Source: Elusimicrobiota bacterium
Lineage (GTDB): Bacteria > Elusimicrobiota > Elusimicrobia > UBA1565
Direction of reading: 5' to 3'
NCBI GenBank assembly: GCA_016196755.1
Contig: JACPXC010000066.1
Location: forward strand, 1-50,963
DNA: 50,963 nucleotides
The notes beneath the pieces were generated by a model. It did no database searches, had not been told where the DNA came from, and saw only the letters and a program-made list of their open reading frames with translations. Of this stretch, positions 33,767 through 41,629 are shown piece after piece. How positions within the stretch are numbered: position 1 is the first letter of the stretch; each line of letters begins with the position of its first letter. Both the position numbers and the translations under genes were made by a program.

Positions 33767-33799
33767 GTCCTTTGGACGGGAATGTATCATGGGGGCCGC

Positions 33800-34732
33800 A
33801 TGAAGGTAGGCGTCATCGGCGGGTCGGGCTTCATCGGGTCGCACGTGGTCGACAAGCTCGTCGACGCCGGCCACGACGTCACGGTCTTCGACATCATGAA
33901 CCCGCATCGCTCGGACGTCCGCCACATCATGGCCGACATCCTCGACCCCGGCCGCACAACCCTGGCCTTGGCCGGCGAGTACGACGCGATCTACCTCCTG
34001 GCCGCGGTGGCCAACGTCAACGACGTCTACCACATCCCGGTCGAGTCGGTGCAGACCAACGTCATGGCGGTCGCCAACGTCCTCGAGGCCTCGCGGCGCA
34101 CCGGCGCCAAGCGCGTCATCCTGGCCTCCACGGCCTGGGTGTACGGGATGTCCGACCGGCCCGAGGTCGACGAGGAGACCCCCCTCTCGGTCAACTCGGT
34201 CAACCACGTCTACACCGCCTCGAAGGTCTCGGCCGAGATGCTCTGCCACTCCTACTCGAAGCTCTACAAGCTCGACACCACGATCCTGCGCTACGGCATC
34301 CCCTACGGCCCGCGCGCGCGCATGGGCACGGTGCTCGCCACCTTCGTCAACCGGGCGATGCGCGGCCAGCCGATCGTCATCCAGGGCGACGGCTCGCAGT
34401 GGCGCAGCTTCGTCTACGTCGAGGATTTGGCGCTGGGCAACGTCGCGGCCCTGCAGGACGCCGCCAAGAACGAGACCTTCAACCTCGAAGGCACCGAGCG
34501 CACCACCATCCGCCAGATCGCCGACAAGGTCCAGGAGTTCTTCCCGCATGCCGACATCCGCTACGTCGACGCCCGCGCCGGGGACCTGGCGCCGAAGATC
34601 GTCTCCAACAAGAAGGCCTTCGCGCGCCTGGGCTGGAAGCCCACGGTAGCCTTCAACGACGGGGCCGAGGCCTACATCCGCTGGGCCCAGCGCAGCCTCG
34701 AGGCTCAGAAGAAGCCGGCCCTGGCCGTCTAG
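33800..34732 (+). CDS. NAD-dependent epimerase/dehydratase (extended SDR)
   Basis: The 310-residue protein starts with the Rossmann motif VGVIGGSGFIGSHVV. The extended-SDR active site is present: Ser/Thr in LASTAWVYG, and Tyr-x-x-x-Lys in YTASKVSAE. RYGIPYGPRAR and the sugar-side motif WRSFVYVEDLA fit UDP-glucose 4-epimerase and dTDP-glucose 4,6-dehydratase relatives. It should change a nucleotide sugar, which one is unknown. I prefer the ATG at 33800 (GGGGG 4 nt upstream) over one at 33782 because the motif then starts at the N-terminus. It lies next to surface-glycolipid genes, but convergent with them. Confidence 0.85.
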   Translation: MKVGVIGGSGFIGSHVVDKLVDAGHDVTVFDIMNPHRSDVRHIMADILDPGRTTLALAGEYDAIYLLAAVANVNDVYHIPVESVQTNVMAVANVLEASRRTGAKRVILASTAWVYGMSDRPEVDEETPLSVNSVNHVYTASKVSAEMLCHSYSKLYKLDTTILRYGIPYGPRARMGTVLATFVNRAMRGQPIVIQGDGSQWRSFVYVEDLALGNVAALQDAAKNETFNLEGTERTTIRQIADKVQEFFPHADIRYVDARAGDLAPKIVSNKKAFARLGWKPTVAFNDGAEAYIRWAQRSLEAQKKPALAV

Positions 34733-34768: not shown

Positions 34769-34787
34769 AGCGGGGCTCCGCCCCGCT
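34769..34787. terminator. Convergent-end terminator hairpin
   Basis: A 7-bp GC stem (AGCGGGG at 34769-34775 with CCCCGCT at 34781-34787, 5-nt loop) lies between the stops of the epimerase (34732) and the MFS gene (34786), including the last bases of the latter. It could end transcription both ways. Confidence 0.5.
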
Positions 34788-35892
34788 AGAGCAGCCAGGC
34801 GGCGAGGCCGGCCAAGAGGCAGGCGGCCGGCAGGAGCGCCGCGGCCGACGGCGAGGCCGCCTCGGCCGTCCAGCCCATGGCCTGGTGGCCCAGGCCGAGA
34901 GCCACGACCATCAACGCGTAGACGAAGGCCAAGGACTCGCGCAGGCGCGCCCCGCGCTCGACCGACACCCGCGTGATGAGCAGCGGGAACAGCGGCCCGA
35001 AGAGGGCCCCCGCCAGCCAGAACCCCCAGGGGCTTCCGGAAGCCCCAAGCAGGGTCCCCGCGGCCCCGCCGACGAGCCCCAGGGGCACGAGGACGCGCTC
35101 GGCGCCCGGCCGGACGAAGGCGGCCGAGGCAACGCGGCCGGCGGCCAGGGCCAGGAAGAAGCCGCTCAAGACCCGGCCCGCTTCGGGCAAGCCCATGCCC
35201 TTGGCCGTGAGGATGGCGACCATCCACATCGAGGTCAGGACCTCGCCGAGGACGTAGAGCGCCACGACGGAGGCCAGCCGCCATGGCGCCCCCGCCGGCG
35301 CGGCGGCGTCCGTTCCCAAAGCCGCGGCGCGGCCCCCGGGCAGGACGGCCGTGGCCGCCAGGAGCAGGGCCGGCAGGAGCGCCGGCGCGGCGAGCAGGGC
35401 CATCGGCCCGCCGCCGGCGCGCTCGACGGCGGCGACGTAGAGCGGCGGGAAAACGCAGCTGATCCCGTAGAAGACATGCAGGAGGCTGACCACGCGCGCC
35501 CGGCTGGAGGCCGGCGTGGCGCGCATGACGAGCAGGTTCGAGCCCATCCCCAGCCCGCCGTTGCCGGCCCCCCAGAGCAGGCCCGAGACCGCCAGCGTGC
35601 CGAGCCCGGGAGCGGCCGCCGCCAGCAGCATGGCCGCGGCCTGCAGTCCCGCGGCCAGCGCCACCACCGCGCGGTCGCTGAGCCCCGAGAGCGCCCGCAG
35701 CGCCAGCAGGTTGAAGGCCAAGGAGCCCACGCTGCCTGCGGTCAAGAACGTCGAGAGCCGGCCGTAACCCGAGGCGAAGCGCTCGGCCAAGAGCGGCAGC
35801 GCCGGGGCGCGCAGGCTGTCGCAGAGCGAGGAGACGACGAGGCAGCCGAAGCCCAGGACTAGGAGACGGACGGCGTCTCGCGATTGTGCCAT
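34786..35892 (-). CDS. MFS permease, last gene of glycolipid operon
   Basis: The 368-residue protein has about eleven to twelve hydrophobic helices with a central break (about 175-190), as in major facilitator permeases. Motifs such as SSLCDSLRAPALPLLAERF and GAGNGGLGMGSNLLVMRAT fit MFS families that handle sugars or lipids; no substrate can be assigned. The ATG at 35892 lies within the preceding gene, overlapping its end by 34 bases. It is the fifth gene of the overlapping HpnI-HpnK-EamA-EamA-MFS operon, so it probably moves a product or precursor of that pathway. Confidence 0.75.
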   Translation of the reverse strand: MAQSRDAVRLLVLGFGCLVVSSLCDSLRAPALPLLAERFASGYGRLSTFLTAGSVGSLAFNLLALRALSGLSDRAVVALAAGLQAAAMLLAAAAPGLGTLAVSGLLWGAGNGGLGMGSNLLVMRATPASSRARVVSLLHVFYGISCVFPPLYVAAVERAGGGPMALLAAPALLPALLLAATAVLPGGRAAALGTDAAAPAGAPWRLASVVALYVLGEVLTSMWMVAILTAKGMGLPEAGRVLSGFFLALAAGRVASAAFVRPGAERVLVPLGLVGGAAGTLLGASGSPWGFWLAGALFGPLFPLLITRVSVERGARLRESLAFVYALMVVALGLGHQAMGWTAEAASPSAAALLPAACLLAGLAAWLL

Positions 35893-36266
35893 GAACCGTA
35901 GAGCAGGGCGACCCCGGCGGCGATGAGGACGATGCCGGCCCAGCGCACCGGCCCGACCCGCTCGCCGAGGAAGACCGCGGCGGTCAGCGCCACGAGGATG
36001 TACTCGAGCGCGTTGAGCGGCAAAGCCCAGCTCACTTCCGACCAGGACAGCACCGCCAGCCACAGGAGATAGTTGGCCAGCTCGAGGAGTATCCCGCCGA
36101 TGACCCAGGGGTTGGCGACCGCCGCGGTAAAGAAGGCCCACAGGGAGACGGGGTCGAAGGCCTCGAGCGAGCCCACCGCCTGCATCCCCTTCGAGAGCGC
36201 GACGTTGCCCGCTCCCGCAGCCGCGATGGCCACGAGCATGACGACCAGGACCCTGGCCTTCACCAT
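35859..36266 (-). CDS. 4-TM EamA/ArnF-like protein (second of pair)
   Basis: This 135-residue protein has four hydrophobic helices. It shares with its neighbour the pattern SKGMQAVG...P, then ANYLLWLAVLSWSEVSWALP, LNALEYILV, FLGERV and GIVLIAAGVALLYGSWH. This is a half-size DMT fold, as in the ArnE/ArnF heterodimer that flips undecaprenyl-phosphate-aminoarabinose. The two tandem genes may likewise form a heterodimer. The ATG at 36266 lies inside the end of the upstream gene by 7 bases. Its target lipid is unknown. Confidence 0.7.
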   Translation of the reverse strand: MVKARVLVVMLVAIAAAGAGNVALSKGMQAVGSLEAFDPVSLWAFFTAAVANPWVIGGILLELANYLLWLAVLSWSEVSWALPLNALEYILVALTAAVFLGERVGPVRWAGIVLIAAGVALLYGSWHNRETPSVS

Positions 36267-36634
36267 GAGCCCATCACGCAGGCCACCCCGCCCGAGATGA
36301 GGCCGATTCCCAGCCAGCGCCGGACGGCCACGCGCTCCTTGAGCCACCAGGCCGCCAAGCCCGCGGTGACCGCGTACTCGACCGCGTTCATCGGCAGCGC
36401 CCAGCTGACGTCGGCCCAGGACAGGACGATGAGCCAGAGCATGAAGTTGGCCATCCCGGCCATGAGGCCCAGGAGCACCCACTTGTTAGAGACGGCTCCG
36501 AGCCCGTAGCGGAGGAGCGGCCCCGGGCGGCAGTCCTCGAGCGGGCCCATCGCCTGCATGCCGCGGCTGGTCAGGACGTTGGAGAGGCTCGAGGCCAGCA
36601 CGGCGATCCAGATGAAGACGGTGGCGCGGATCAA
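36260..36634 (-). CDS. 4-TM EamA/ArnE-like protein (first of pair)
   Basis: This 124-residue protein has four hydrophobic helices and is a paralogue of the next gene: SRGMQAMGPLED, MANFMLWLIVLSWADVSWALP, MNAVEYAV and WLKERVAVRRWLGIGLI line up closely with it. The shared WSxVSWALPxNAxEY is a DMT-type hinge. It starts with TTG, overlapping the deacetylase TGA stop as TTGA. Half-size DMT pairs usually form heterodimers, here probably flipping a deacetylated glycolipid; that step is inference. Confidence 0.7.
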   Translation of the reverse strand: MIRATVFIWIAVLASSLSNVLTSRGMQAMGPLEDCRPGPLLRYGLGAVSNKWVLLGLMAGMANFMLWLIVLSWADVSWALPMNAVEYAVTAGLAAWWLKERVAVRRWLGIGLISGGVACVMGSW

Positions 36635-37467
36635 CGCACGGCCTCGGCGAAAGCCATGCGGCGGGCGCCGGCGCGCTCGAGCGCCTCGCGCACCCGCGGG
36701 GATAGGAGGGCCGCGAGCTCATCGGCGTGGCGGTAGTCCGGCATCTCCTCGGCGAGCACGCCCTTGGTGGCCGTGGCGGGATGACAGTAGACCTCGGCAA
36801 CGCCGTCTCCAAGGCGCGCGGCCACCCGCAGCCAGGCCGCCTCGTCCATCGCGCCGGTCTCGAAGAGGCCGTGGAGCTCGTCGTTGACGGCCAGGCCCGC
36901 CGCGAGGAAGCGCCGCCGCGCCAGCGCCGTCCACGGGGCCATGACGGCCGCCGTCAGCGCCCCGGCGGCGGTCATCCCCCGCCAGGGCTGAGCCGGCACC
37001 CGCACGGCGGGGACTCGGAACTCCGCCGCCAGGCGCGCGGTGATCGCGGCCACGGTCGGGTGGATGTGGAAGTGGTTGTGAGCGTTGACGTGGTCGAAGG
37101 AGAGCCCGGTCCCCGCGAAGCGCTCGAACTGGGCCCGGCACTCGGCCTCGGCCTGCGAGCGCGCTCGCGCCGAGAAGAAGATCGCCGCGCCGATGAAGGC
37201 CATGTCCTCGCGCAGACGGCCGCGCGCGTCGACGAGGTCCGGGATGCGTTCCGGAGTCAGGACCGGCCGGGCGTGGACCAGACAGAGGTGCAGGCCGACC
37301 TTGAGGCCCGGGGCGGCCTTTGCCAGCGCCACGGCCTCCTCCCAGGCGGGGGCCCCGACCATGAGGCTGGCGGCGGTCAGGATGCCGCGCCGGTTGGCCT
37401 CGACGACCGCGGCGTTGACCTCGGGGCTCAAGCCGAAGTCGTCGGCCGTGACGACGAGCTTTGTCAC
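36631..37467 (-). CDS. HpnK-like lipid-linked sugar deacetylase
   Basis: The 278-residue protein is of the YdjC/ChbG/HpnK carbohydrate-deacetylase family. The metal site is LVVTADDFGLSPEVN (D9, D10) and AHNHFHIHP (H130, H132, H134); a further catalytic-looking Asp/His pair lies in YCHPATATKG. In hopanoid producers, HpnK removes the acetyl group from the N-acetylglucosaminyl lipid made by HpnI. The gene follows the HpnI-like gene by a GTGA overlap, as in hopanoid clusters. A different N-acetylhexosaminyl-lipid is an alternative substrate, since no squalene-hopene cyclase is in the window. Confidence 0.8.
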   Translation of the reverse strand: MTKLVVTADDFGLSPEVNAAVVEANRRGILTAASLMVGAPAWEEAVALAKAAPGLKVGLHLCLVHARPVLTPERIPDLVDARGRLREDMAFIGAAIFFSARARSQAEAECRAQFERFAGTGLSFDHVNAHNHFHIHPTVAAITARLAAEFRVPAVRVPAQPWRGMTAAGALTAAVMAPWTALARRRFLAAGLAVNDELHGLFETGAMDEAAWLRVAARLGDGVAEVYCHPATATKGVLAEEMPDYRHADELAALLSPRVREALERAGARRMAFAEAVR

Positions 37468-38594
37468 GGCCCCATCTCGACCATGGTATTGCCCTTGAGA
37501 CGGAAGGCCCGCCCCTTCCAATGCACCGTGCGCCCGGAGAGCGCCGCGAACCACGTGGCGAGGCCCGCCAGGTCTCGCGCAGGCAGCAGCCACAGCGAGC
37601 GCAGGCCGTCGGAGTCGCCCAGCAGGACGGCGTTGACCGCCGCGGTGGCTAGGCGCAGGGCCAAGGTAAGGATGAGCACCGCCGCCCCCTCGAAGCCCCC
37701 GAAGAGCCAGTACAGGAAGGCGAACGGCACGCCGCGCACGGTCCAGGTGAAGAAGAAGCCCGCCGGGCTGGCCGCGCGGGTGTTCTGGTCCCAGTAGACC
37801 TGGTGGCGCCACCAGTCGCGCCACGAGCCCAGGTCGACGCCGGTGCGCGCCACATGGGGGACGAAGGCGATCTTGAGACCGGCCTTGAGGACCGCCACGC
37901 CTAGCTCGAAGTCCTCGACGAGGGTATGGGCCATGGGCTCGAGGCCGCCGATGCGCTCGAGGGTGTCGCGGCGCAGGGCCTGCGACGCCCCGGGGCAGGC
38001 CGGTGAAGCCCCGGTGACGGTGGCGAAGATCATGGCCGGGACGAACTCGACGTTGAGCGACAAGAGCTCCAGACGCTCGAAGACGCCGCGCGGGCGCCAG
38101 GCCCGATAGACCGTACAAGAGACGCCGACGGCGGGGTCGGCCAGCGGAGCGGTGACGGCGCGCAGGTAGCCCGGCTCGAGGCAGACGTCGGCGTCGGAGT
38201 AGACCAGTACCTCGCCGTCGGCGCGCTTGGTGGCGTTTAAGATGTTGCAGAGCCGGCCGTTGGGGCCGGCGCAGGTCTCGTCGAGGACGACCTTCACGCG
38301 GCCGGGGCGGCGCTCCCTCATGCGCTCGGCCAGGGCCAGGGCCGGGTCATCGGGCCTCTGTAGCGCGAAGACGACCTCGTAGTCCGGATAGTCCTGCTCG
38401 AGGGCGCTGGCCATGTTCTCCTCGAGGCCGCTCTCCAGGCCGCACAGCGGCTTTATCAGCGAGACGCGCGGCAGTCGGGAGGGGGCGGGCGCCGCCGGGG
38501 TCCGGCGCATGAACCACCAAACGGCGCCGACCACCAGGAGCCAATAGACGCCTGAGCAGAAGACCGGGACCAGGAGCGGAAACTGCCAGGCCAT
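37464..38594 (-). CDS. HpnI-like membrane glycosyltransferase
   Basis: The 376-residue GT2/GT21-type protein has one N-terminal helix (PLLVPVFCSGVYWLLVVGAV), a cytoplasmic GT-A domain with SLIKPLCGLESGLEENMASA, the DxD-type VYSDADV, and a VEDFEL acceptor motif. The basic WRHQVYWDQ follows, then two or more C-terminal helices. This is the layout of the ceramide-glucosyltransferase-like HpnI family. HpnI adds N-acetylglucosamine to bacteriohopanetetrol in the hopanoid pathway. It is the first of five genes in a fully overlapping operon. The exact acceptor lipid is not established from sequence. Confidence 0.8.
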   Translation of the reverse strand: MAWQFPLLVPVFCSGVYWLLVVGAVWWFMRRTPAAPAPSRLPRVSLIKPLCGLESGLEENMASALEQDYPDYEVVFALQRPDDPALALAERMRERRPGRVKVVLDETCAGPNGRLCNILNATKRADGEVLVYSDADVCLEPGYLRAVTAPLADPAVGVSCTVYRAWRPRGVFERLELLSLNVEFVPAMIFATVTGASPACPGASQALRRDTLERIGGLEPMAHTLVEDFELGVAVLKAGLKIAFVPHVARTGVDLGSWRDWWRHQVYWDQNTRAASPAGFFFTWTVRGVPFAFLYWLFGGFEGAAVLILTLALRLATAAVNAVLLGDSDGLRSLWLLPARDLAGLATWFAALSGRTVHWKGRAFRLKGNTMVEMGP

Positions 38595-38632: not shown

Positions 38633-41629
38633 CTAGCCGGCGTCGTCGGGGGCCCAACCCATCGCCTGCAGGCGCTCGCCCGAGAAGAACTCCTCGGCGG
38701 TGGGCAGGCCCTCGGGAGGGCGCTTCGGCACGTAGGGCTTCCAGCCGGCGTCGAAGAGCATCTTGAAGTAGGCCCTGAAGAAAGCTACGTCGGCCTCGTC
38801 GAGCGTGAAGCTCACGTTCTCGTAGGAGTTCTTCTCGGCGTTGGCCGTATAGTTGAAGGACCCGGCGCCGAGCATCTTGCCATCGATGATCACGAACTTG
38901 TTGTGGGTCTTCTCGAAGTAGACGTTCTCATACGGGTTGGGCCCGGCCAGTATGCGGACGTCGAAGCCGTGGTAGGAGAACCAGTCGTCGAGCTTCATGA
39001 GCTTGGACTGCATGCGGTCGAGGACCAGGCGGACCTCGACGCCCCGCTCCTTGGCGGCCAAAAGCTCCTGGGCGATGCGCACCGAGTAGAAGCTGAACAT
39101 CGCCACCTCGACGGAGACCTTGGCCGCGGCGATGGCCTTGACGATGTTCTCCTCGATGAGTCCGGCCGGCGAGAACGCCTGGCGCGGCAGCTTCGTCCCG
39201 TTCAGGTCGATGGCCAGGTCCTCGTCGACCGGCGCGCCGGCCGGGCGCTCGCCGGCCCAGTCGTGCTCCTCGGCCTTGTCGAGCGGCTGAGAATAGGTCC
39301 GCATGAAATCCCAAGCCTTGCGGTAGAAAGCCACGCGCTCGGACTCGTCGGCGAACTGGATATGCTCGAAATGGTGGTACTCGGCGGTGTAGGCCCAGTT
39401 GTAGGAGCCGTACTCGATGAGCTTTCCGTCGAAGATGGCGATCTTGTTATGCATGATGCCCGGCAGGCGCGTACCGCGCAGCACGGTGGTGTCGAACTCG
39501 TCGAAGAGCGCCTGGATCTGCGGATTGCGCACGCGCACCTCGCCGTTGTGGCGGTTGCCCTTCGGGAAGGCCTGATAGTACTCGACGATGGCGCGCACCT
39601 TGACGCCGCGGGCCTTGGCGCGGCGCAGGGCCTCGACGACCTCCTGAAGGTTGAATTCGTAGAGCGCCAGCTCGATGGACTCGGCGGAGGCGTCGATGGC
39701 CTTGATGAGGAGCTGCTGGACCGGGTGGACGGGGCGCACGGCCGACGAGGGCAGGGTCTCGCCGTTGAAGTTCAGGGTCCGGGCCTCGGGCAGCGGGCCC
39801 CACTGCGGCCCGGGCGGCAGGGGCTGGGGGACGCCGCGGATGCTTTCGAGCGCCTGCTCTTCGTTCGGCAAGGTGGGCTCGGAGGCCGGCGGGATGTGGC
39901 GCTCGGCCAGGCGCGACTTGAACATGTCGTCGAAGTAGGCGGCGAACGAGGCCGCGTCCTTGGCGTCGTCGAGCAGGTAGAGGCCGTCGAAGTTGGTGAC
40001 GACGGCGCTGACGGTCCAGTTGGTCGAGCCGGTCAGGACCAGCTTGCCGTCGAGGATAGCCAGCTTGTTGTGGGCTTTCTCGAGGATCTTCGGGCCGTCG
40101 GGGTTGGGGCCGGCCAGGGTCTTGATGGGGATCTTATGGTAGGCCAGCCAGTCGACGAAGGGCTTCATGAAGTCTTCGGGCGCCTGCGAGCGGTCGACGA
40201 TCATCCGCACCTTCACGCCGCGGTCCTTGGCGGCCTTGATGGCCCGGACCATGGCCGGCGAGGTCAGCGTGAACATCGAGATGTCGATGGTCTTCCTGGC
40301 GGCGCCCAAGGCCCGGATGATGGTCTCCTCGGCGAGCTTGTCCGGCGAGAAGGCCCAGGACGGCAGGACCACGCCGTTGAAGTCGATCGACGGCGCGAGG
40401 TCTTGGGGGGGCCGCCCCGGGATGGTCTGCGGCCAGACGTGCTCGCGGGCCTGCGCGAAGGGCACGCTCATGGCGCGCATCCAGTCCCAGTAGGCCTGCA
40501 GACCGGCGATGCGCTTCTTGTCATCGGTGAAGACGAGGTTCTCGAAGTGGTTGTTCTCGGAGGAATAGGACCAGTTATAGGACCCGAACAACGCCAAGGA
40601 GCCGTCGAACACCGCGAACTTGTTGTGGGCGATGCCCCACTTCTCGCCGCCGCGCAGCAGGGTGACGTCGAAGCCTTCCTCGTCGATGAGCGACTGCATC
40701 TCGAGCGGGCGGCTCGGCCAGTAGCTCGAGTCGTCGCGCTTGACCGGGAAGGTGTGGCCGAAATCGACGACGACGCGTATCTTGACGCCGCGGTCGCGGG
40801 CCGCGCGCAGGGCCTTGAGGATCTCGCGGTTCTTGAACTCGTAGAGCGAGATGTCGATCGAGGTCTTGGATGCGTTGATGGCGGCTATGATCAGCGGCTC
40901 GATGGGGCGGTCGGGGCGGAAGGCCACCGACGGGAGTTCCGTGCCGTTGAAGTTCAGCGTCCGCGCCGGGTAGACGGGGTCGGCGACCGGTGCGGGCGCC
41001 TCCCTCTTCCGCCCCTTGCGGGTCGGCGGTTTGCGGCGCGCGGCCTCGGCCTCGGCGATGTCGTCGGGCTCGGCCGCCTCGGCGTCGAAGAGCGAGAAGT
41101 TGAGCCCGGCCTTCTGGCTGAAGAAGGCCTCGGCCTGCTCGCGCGAGTCGCCGGGCGAGGCGTCGGACTTCGGCGCCTCGGCGTCGGAGCCCAGGGCGGC
41201 TAGGCCCGGGCGCTCGCGGCCTGCCTGCTCGTCGCCGGCGACGGCGTTGACGGCGGAGCGCAGGCCCTCGCGCATTGAGACGGGGGTCAAGGATTTAGAC
41301 GCCGCGGCCGTCGGCGCCGCGAAGGCGGCGGGCAGGGCGCTCGGGGCCGCGGCCGCCGCGCGGACGGCGGGGGCGGCACCAGGGGTGAGCGCCGGCGTCG
41401 GAAGAGTGGGCGTCAGCCCGGCGCTGAGGCGCGGAGAAGCCAGGGACGCGCCGGCCGTGGGCGCCACGCCGGCGGCTCCGACGGGGGCGGGCACGGCCGA
41501 GACGACGGGGGTGGCGCGGACGGCGCCTACGACCTGGGCTAAGGCTGAGGGCGGGAAAGCCACCAGCCATGCGGCGGCCAGAGCACCGAGGCGGGTCGGC
41601 CAGCGCCTTTCGGCCTTCATCCAGCCCAT
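38633..41629 (-). CDS. Secreted protein with four phospholipase-D HKD motifs
   Basis: The 998-residue protein starts at ATG 41629 with a signal peptide (to SALAQ) and an Ala/Pro/Thr/Val-rich leader to about residue 120. Four PLDc_2-like domains follow, each with HNKxxxxD: H335 (HNKFAVFDG), H520 (HNKLAILDG), H727 (HNKIAIFDG) and H909 (HNKFVIIDG). Each is followed by GSxN. PLD enzymes normally pair two HKD motifs per active site, so this may hold two. Substrate (phospholipid, nucleic acid or other phosphodiester) is unknown. The long upstream extension of the frame overlaps the divergent PAP2 gene and is not used. Confidence 0.8.
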   Translation of the reverse strand: MGWMKAERRWPTRLGALAAAWLVAFPPSALAQVVGAVRATPVVSAVPAPVGAAGVAPTAGASLASPRLSAGLTPTLPTPALTPGAAPAVRAAAAAPSALPAAFAAPTAAASKSLTPVSMREGLRSAVNAVAGDEQAGRERPGLAALGSDAEAPKSDASPGDSREQAEAFFSQKAGLNFSLFDAEAAEPDDIAEAEAARRKPPTRKGRKREAPAPVADPVYPARTLNFNGTELPSVAFRPDRPIEPLIIAAINASKTSIDISLYEFKNREILKALRAARDRGVKIRVVVDFGHTFPVKRDDSSYWPSRPLEMQSLIDEEGFDVTLLRGGEKWGIAHNKFAVFDGSLALFGSYNWSYSSENNHFENLVFTDDKKRIAGLQAYWDWMRAMSVPFAQAREHVWPQTIPGRPPQDLAPSIDFNGVVLPSWAFSPDKLAEETIIRALGAARKTIDISMFTLTSPAMVRAIKAAKDRGVKVRMIVDRSQAPEDFMKPFVDWLAYHKIPIKTLAGPNPDGPKILEKAHNKLAILDGKLVLTGSTNWTVSAVVTNFDGLYLLDDAKDAASFAAYFDDMFKSRLAERHIPPASEPTLPNEEQALESIRGVPQPLPPGPQWGPLPEARTLNFNGETLPSSAVRPVHPVQQLLIKAIDASAESIELALYEFNLQEVVEALRRAKARGVKVRAIVEYYQAFPKGNRHNGEVRVRNPQIQALFDEFDTTVLRGTRLPGIMHNKIAIFDGKLIEYGSYNWAYTAEYHHFEHIQFADESERVAFYRKAWDFMRTYSQPLDKAEEHDWAGERPAGAPVDEDLAIDLNGTKLPRQAFSPAGLIEENIVKAIAAAKVSVEVAMFSFYSVRIAQELLAAKERGVEVRLVLDRMQSKLMKLDDWFSYHGFDVRILAGPNPYENVYFEKTHNKFVIIDGKMLGAGSFNYTANAEKNSYENVSFTLDEADVAFFRAYFKMLFDAGWKPYVPKRPPEGLPTAEEFFSGERLQAMGWAPDDAG

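Follow-up and report, generated by a model that had tools for sequence, protein, structure and literature searches.

Introduction

The closest described counterparts of the genes considered here include the hpnI-hpnK-hpnJ steps of hopanoid synthesis in Burkholderiaceae and Alphaproteobacteria, as set out in PMC12583986, which cites Schmerk et al. 2015. Comparable systems are GpgSDF of P. aeruginosa (PMC12713373) and HexSDF of C. difficile (PMC10128005), each of which comprises a glycosyltransferase, a deacetylase and a predicted flippase, with proof that extends as far as deacetylation. In the E. coli arn operon (ArnC/ArnD/ArnE/ArnF), a GT2 enzyme and a deacylase are the neighbours of paired half-size proteins of the small multidrug resistance (SMR) type. 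The NaxD pathway of Francisella uses undecaprenyl phosphate as its carrier, and its product goes to lipid A. Here we describe a locus that can be set beside all of these. It lies on contig JACPXC010000066.1 of Elusimicrobiota bacterium GCA_016196755.1 (genome label G000), a stretch of 50,963 nt referred to below as the window, and it joins genes for an HpnI-like glycosyltransferase and the YdjC-family deacetylase HpnK to a pair of genes, eam1 and eam2, for half-size EamA proteins.

Like the hopanoid cluster, this block encodes an HpnI-family glycosyltransferase and an HpnK of the same clade, and a predicted flippase gene also adjoins hpnK in Burkholderiaceae. The block differs from that cluster in that it lacks HpnJ, its HpnI is divergent, the EamA pair is found where a UPF0104/LPG_synthase_TM gene otherwise sits, and the island carrying squalene-hopene cyclase (SHC) and HpnH is on another contig. 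With GpgSDF and HexSDF it would share the three-step logic of N-acetylhexosamine transfer to a lipid, deacetylation and flipping, the last of these being a prediction for our block, whereas those systems use another glycosyltransferase family, a deacetylase of other annotation, an MprF/UPF0104-like flippase and a different acceptor. The NaxD pathway, compared by description only, likewise has a YdjC-family deacetylase that acts on a lipid-linked N-acetylhexosamine. On balance, we judge the chances to lean slightly toward a block that makes an aminosugar hopanoid, with the Eam pair serving as its SMR-type flippase.

A conserved four-gene block

The block in the window consists of five minus-strand genes with successive overlaps of 4 (GTGA), 4 (TTGA), 7 and 34 bp. 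These overlaps and the following coordinates, first given in an initial annotation, were reproduced exactly from the sequence:

37464..38594, minus strand: hpnI-like glycosyltransferase (GT21/GT2 family), 376 aa, a divergent block-type HpnI
36631..37467, minus strand: hpnK, YdjC-family deacetylase, 278 aa, GTG start, 4-bp overlap with hpnI
36260..36634, minus strand: eam1, half-size EamA/SMR protein with four transmembrane (TM) helices, first of the pair, 124 aa, TTG start, 4-bp overlap
35859..36266, minus strand: eam2, half-size (4-TM) EamA/SMR protein, second of the pair, 135 aa, 7-bp overlap
34786..35892, minus strand: permease resembling the major facilitator superfamily (MFS), an accessory of the window's genus only, 368 aa, 34-bp overlap with eam2

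Homologues with 60-83% identity occur in the same order in two other genomes of the window's genus, which argues that all five genes are real.

Within a survey set of 341 Elusimicrobiota genomes, a profile of the Eam pair gave paired strong matches (181-205 bits) in only six, followed by single genes at no more than 109 bits. A profile of HpnK gave strong matches (486-503 bits) in the identical six genomes, with the next match at 236 bits. Three of these belong to the window's genus, g1 (G000, G001 and G002), and three to genus g10 (G017, G034 and G043), so that two families are represented. The genes hpnI, hpnK, eam1 and eam2 are adjacent in all six, the contig ending within hpnI in G001 and G043, and the conserved unit is this set of four. 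A glycosyltransferase, a deacetylase and an ArnE-type pair had been put forward earlier as a unit, and this is borne out by the co-occurrence of the pair with this HpnK type, always side by side: the order is not peculiar to one contig, and the paired form was never seen away from hpnI-hpnK. Of the five-gene order originally described, the four-gene core is conserved and the MFS part is confined to the window's genus. A scan of genome contigs with a single HpnK returned two close relatives only.

Single half-size relatives of the Eam proteins occur in nine other genomes, and those examined adjoin unrelated genes. As a separate observation, two family f3 genomes each have a single half-size EamA gene (L105 7349-7738 and L106 5749-6168) in direct overlap with a gene for an alpha/beta hydrolase, unrelated to hpnI-hpnK. 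Eam1 also weakly matches thirteen plasmid records; the plasmid record lists for HpnK and Eam1 do not overlap, and no hpnK neighbour is listed in the Acidisarcina plasmid record that holds one of the weak Eam1 relatives.

HpnK and HpnI

With respect to family membership, HpnK passed the TIGR03473 cut-off of 232.6 bits (330.5 bits; YdjC, 238.6 bits). The catalytic YdjC motifs TADDFG, H60, HxHxHxHP and HPA are kept in the block HpnKs, which group with Burkholderiaceae HpnK in the tree (support 100/99). The HpnI of the window retains the SDxD and ED motifs, matched Glyco_transf_21 (110.5 bits) and came just short of the TIGR03472 equivalog cut-off (293.5 versus 310 bits). The gene names first proposed therefore stand in part: HpnK and both EamA proteins clear their cut-offs, and HpnI and the MFS protein (26.4 bits against MFS_1; Pfam cut-off, 33.4) do not. 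A second, distant YdjC-family deacetylase is encoded elsewhere in the window's genome (G000:C13:133649-134350; L119 8635-9486), scoring approximately 112-125 bits and lying near an epimerase-like gene.

The Eam1-Eam2 pair

The two Eam proteins of the window are 48% identical (alignment A1) and passed the EamA cut-off of 28.2 bits with 35.0 (Eam1) and 34.0 bits (Eam2). In a profile comparison with hhalign, the pair matched E. coli ArnE (96.5%, E = 9.9e-10, 98 columns) and gave no match to ArnF. Scores against the ArnE (25.8/27.5, cut-off 92) and ArnF (18.8/19.1, cut-off 99) families were far below threshold, which rules out ArnE/ArnF proper as an assignment and leaves a family relationship to ArnE. 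An AlphaFold model of Eam1 (pLDDT 87.7) contains four long helices and one short helix, and its top nine PDB matches are all EmrE or Gdx-Clo, with TM-scores of 0.51-0.75 and modest E-values (0.07-0.93). The ArnE-type relationship that had been suggested for these paralogous 4-TM proteins is thus upheld by the hhalign result and by SMR transporters as the best structural matches. PDB sequence searches with the Eam pair and the MFS protein returned nothing useful.

At the residue level, an Asn in TM1 is invariant in all 12 Eam sequences and aligns with a Gln of ArnE; in lipid-transporting SMR proteins, Asn often replaces the central Glu (review PMC9574504). The Tyr switch of TM3 does not carry over, in that the Tyr of the ArnE AYP motif aligns with the Leu of ALP and the conserved Tyr lies seven residues on. 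A Glu-Tyr pair is invariant in TM3 of the Eam proteins, where ArnE has Asn-Phe, and could bind the cationic sugar.

Hopanoid genes and an apparent exchange of hpnK

The initial annotation had cautioned that the lipid might not be a hopanoid, as no cyclase lies in the window. At the scale of the genome this argument falls away, since contig C61 carries, in one run, genes for farnesyl diphosphate (FPP) synthase, an HpnG-like protein, HpnA, HpnH and SHC; SHC (712.5 bits), HpnH (493.9 bits) and HpnA (449 bits) all exceed their cut-offs. The block and this SHC-HpnH island are on separate contigs. The genome search for shc/hpnF, hpnJ and hpnG thus recovered SHC and an HpnG-like protein and no HpnJ, in agreement with the lack of hpnJ noted in the window: the best match in the genome reached 106.2 bits against a cut-off of 577.6, and HpnJ is absent from G001 and G002 as well. 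No HpnN scored over its cut-off in 16 genomes.

Many relatives in the order carry a canonical locus, hpnJ-hpnI-UPF0104, with hpnK convergent. At this locus in G005, a gene for a CDP-alcohol phosphatidyltransferase-domain protein is inserted between hpnI and UPF0104 (L098 9280-10428), and genes of similar length are found there in G007 and G009. In G017 and G034 the canonical locus (L090 3927-4895 and L094 9498-10469) is syntenic, gene for gene, with that of G041 and G020, minus hpnK alone, and no hpnK remnant was detected in either. The block HpnK is the sole YdjC-family match in G017, G034 and G043, the gap itself being seen in the first two only, as the G043 contig ends inside hpnI. Among g10 genomes that lack the block, 15 of 16 have another YdjC-family match, which is the canonical-locus hpnK in both genomes examined (G041 and G020). 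HpnJ requires a deacetylated product, so in these genomes the simplest and probable reading is that the block HpnK serves hopanoids. The pattern in G017 and G034 resembles a natural exchange of genes between this locus and the block.

A predicted flippase slot

The neighbour of hpnK on two Burkholderiaceae plasmids, where the two genes overlap by 4 bp, and in canonical Elusimicrobiota loci is a UPF0104/LPG_synthase_TM gene. Its product belongs to the predicted flippase type that GpgSDF and HexSDF also have. Because this gene adjoins hpnK elsewhere, the Eam pair appears to occupy a flippase slot. That the pair simply took over from UPF0104 was ruled out, since G000-G002 still have a related UPF0104 gene at another place in the genome and G017 and G034 keep theirs in the canonical locus.

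Proposed pathway and alternatives

The gene content, gene order, conservation, protein families and hopanoid island described above are observed features; from them we infer the acceptor, sugar, topology, Eam pairing and flipping as follows. On the cytoplasmic side, HpnI would use a UDP-sugar to place an N-acetylhexosamine on a hydroxylated lipid, the most likely acceptor being a bacteriohopanepolyol such as bacteriohopanetetrol. HpnK would then deacetylate the sugar to leave a cationic aminosugar, and Eam1 and Eam2, as an SMR-type heterodimer, would move the lipid outward across the inner membrane. Because HpnJ is missing, the pathway in the window's genus would end at the glucosamine stage and not reach the cyclitol ether. 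A more specific version is offered only tentatively, at well short of even confidence: the pair would be a heterodimeric flippase of SMR type, dedicated to aminosugar hopanoids and working beside the UPF0104/MprF-like protein of known clusters or instead of it, and the divergent HpnI coupled to it would make an undescribed hexosamine hopanoid (or related polyol lipid).

Several observations weigh against this account of the block. Every block HpnI scores under the TIGR03472 cut-off, and the block HpnI branch is long (1.48 changes per site). Those block HpnIs that cover the motifs have HQxYW-DQNTR, versus HxxRW-xRTIR/F in canonical and Burkholderiaceae HpnIs; the window protein has HQVYW in place of HxxRW, so that RW is missing from its Q/RxxRW motif, and GPNGR replaces the GxNPK of canonical Elusimicrobiota HpnIs. 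Given the low score, long branch and changed motifs, acceptor or donor may be different, and the block HpnI may use a second acceptor or another sugar. Moreover, G017, G034 and G043 also carry a canonical HpnI, so the block HpnI would be dispensable there for the known hopanoid step. In terms of transport, the K/R biases of Eam1 (-7 to -8; -7 in the window) and Eam2 (-2 to +1; about 0 in the window) across the six genomes are not clearly opposite and fit a fixed antiparallel pair only partly, and the UPF0104 homologue retained in G000-G002 is related to that of the hopanoid locus. Finally, the apparent exchange of hpnK amounts to a single event within a single clade, strong in logic and weak in number.

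The altered glycosyltransferase motifs of all block HpnIs, and their coexistence with a canonical HpnI in the g10 genomes, favor the idea that the block glycosylates, deacetylates and flips a non-hopanoid lipid (phosphatidylglycerol, diacylglycerol or a ceramide-like lipid) as a functional parallel of GpgSDF/HexSDF. Operons of glycosyltransferase, deacetylase and predicted flippase do act on phosphatidylglycerol and glycosyl-diradylglycerol (PMC12713373, PMC10128005). We nonetheless regard this idea as unlikely, though the most serious of the alternatives: HpnK is of the hopanoid type and stands in for a canonical hpnK that was lost next to an hpnJ still intact, GpgS is a GT4 enzyme, unlike HpnI, and the window's genome has a hopanoid island and lacks a second strong match to HpnI (the runner-up reaches 107.8 bits). 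The parallel of glycosyltransferase, deacylase and ArnE-type pair with arnC-arnD-arnE-arnF would suit an Arn/NaxD-like route, in which undecaprenyl-phosphate-hexosamine is made for lipid A or another envelope glycan and the pair flips the carrier lipid. This appears improbable for a glycosyltransferase that is HpnI/GT21-like and matches ArnC only in part (135 columns), for a block in which no ArnT-like terminal transferase was recognised and for an HpnK of hopanoid type. That the Eam pair is an SMR-like exporter of small molecules or ions, merely travelling with hpnI-hpnK, draws on the breadth of the EamA/SMR superfamily and on the single half-size relatives with unrelated neighbours, but sits poorly with a paired form never found apart from hpnI-hpnK in the 341 genomes, with ArnE as the closest named relative and with Asn rather than Glu in TM1; to us it is the least credible of these possibilities. 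The production and flipping of an aminosugar hopanoid remains our preferred account of the block.

The MFS permease and neighbouring genes

The MFS gene had been taken to complete a pathway from glycosylation to export. Its start inside eam2 is backed by three homologues from the same genus, in which an MxxxRD start is conserved. Contrary to that proposal, it follows the block in the window's genus only, is missing from the g10 block, and has relatives (212-242 bits) in four other family members without the block. A core role was ruled out on these grounds, and the MFS protein is an unassigned genus-level accessory.

Two further genes flank the block:

33782..34732, plus strand: NAD-dependent sugar epimerase/dehydratase, convergent neighbour (Epimerase, 172.5 bits)
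38633..41629, minus strand: four-domain PLDc_2 protein (298.8 bits over four stretches) that looks secreted, its N terminus being signal-like

The PLDc_2 gene shares the strand of hpnI and stops 38 bp before it, and a homologue is likewise just upstream in L008 (3107-6040). Given this arrangement, it may be the first operon gene in the window's genus, which would make the transcript longer. Of the six block genomes, five have the convergent epimerase next to the block, namely the window's genome and four more whose homologues are 72-90% identical; in three of the five it overlaps a gene that by appearance of its sequence resembles a DegT-type aminotransferase. The sugar of the block may therefore be other than plain glucosamine.

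Implications

In the literature examined, no protein is assigned to the inner-membrane crossing of polar hopanoids, and HpnN, of the RND type, is credited with outer-membrane delivery only. The block supplies a small flippase candidate with a genetic link to a deacetylase, and this candidate can be expressed and assayed. PMC12583986, one of four papers in the open-access literature searched that name HpnI, HpnK and hopanoids together, mentions neither EamA nor a flippase, and, as far as the open-access literature searched goes, a paired mini-transporter may be new to a hopanoid-type pathway. The Eam pair and the UPF0104 protein of sister loci offer a natural comparison, as these predicted flippases are of unrelated types and would handle the same kind of lipid. 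In the open-access literature searched, only two papers name both Elusimicrobiota and hopanoids, and judged by title and abstract neither has this topic. Our analysis suggests that some members of this phylum produce glucosamine hopanoids but no cyclitol ethers, a point that would bear on how hopanoid biomarkers are read.

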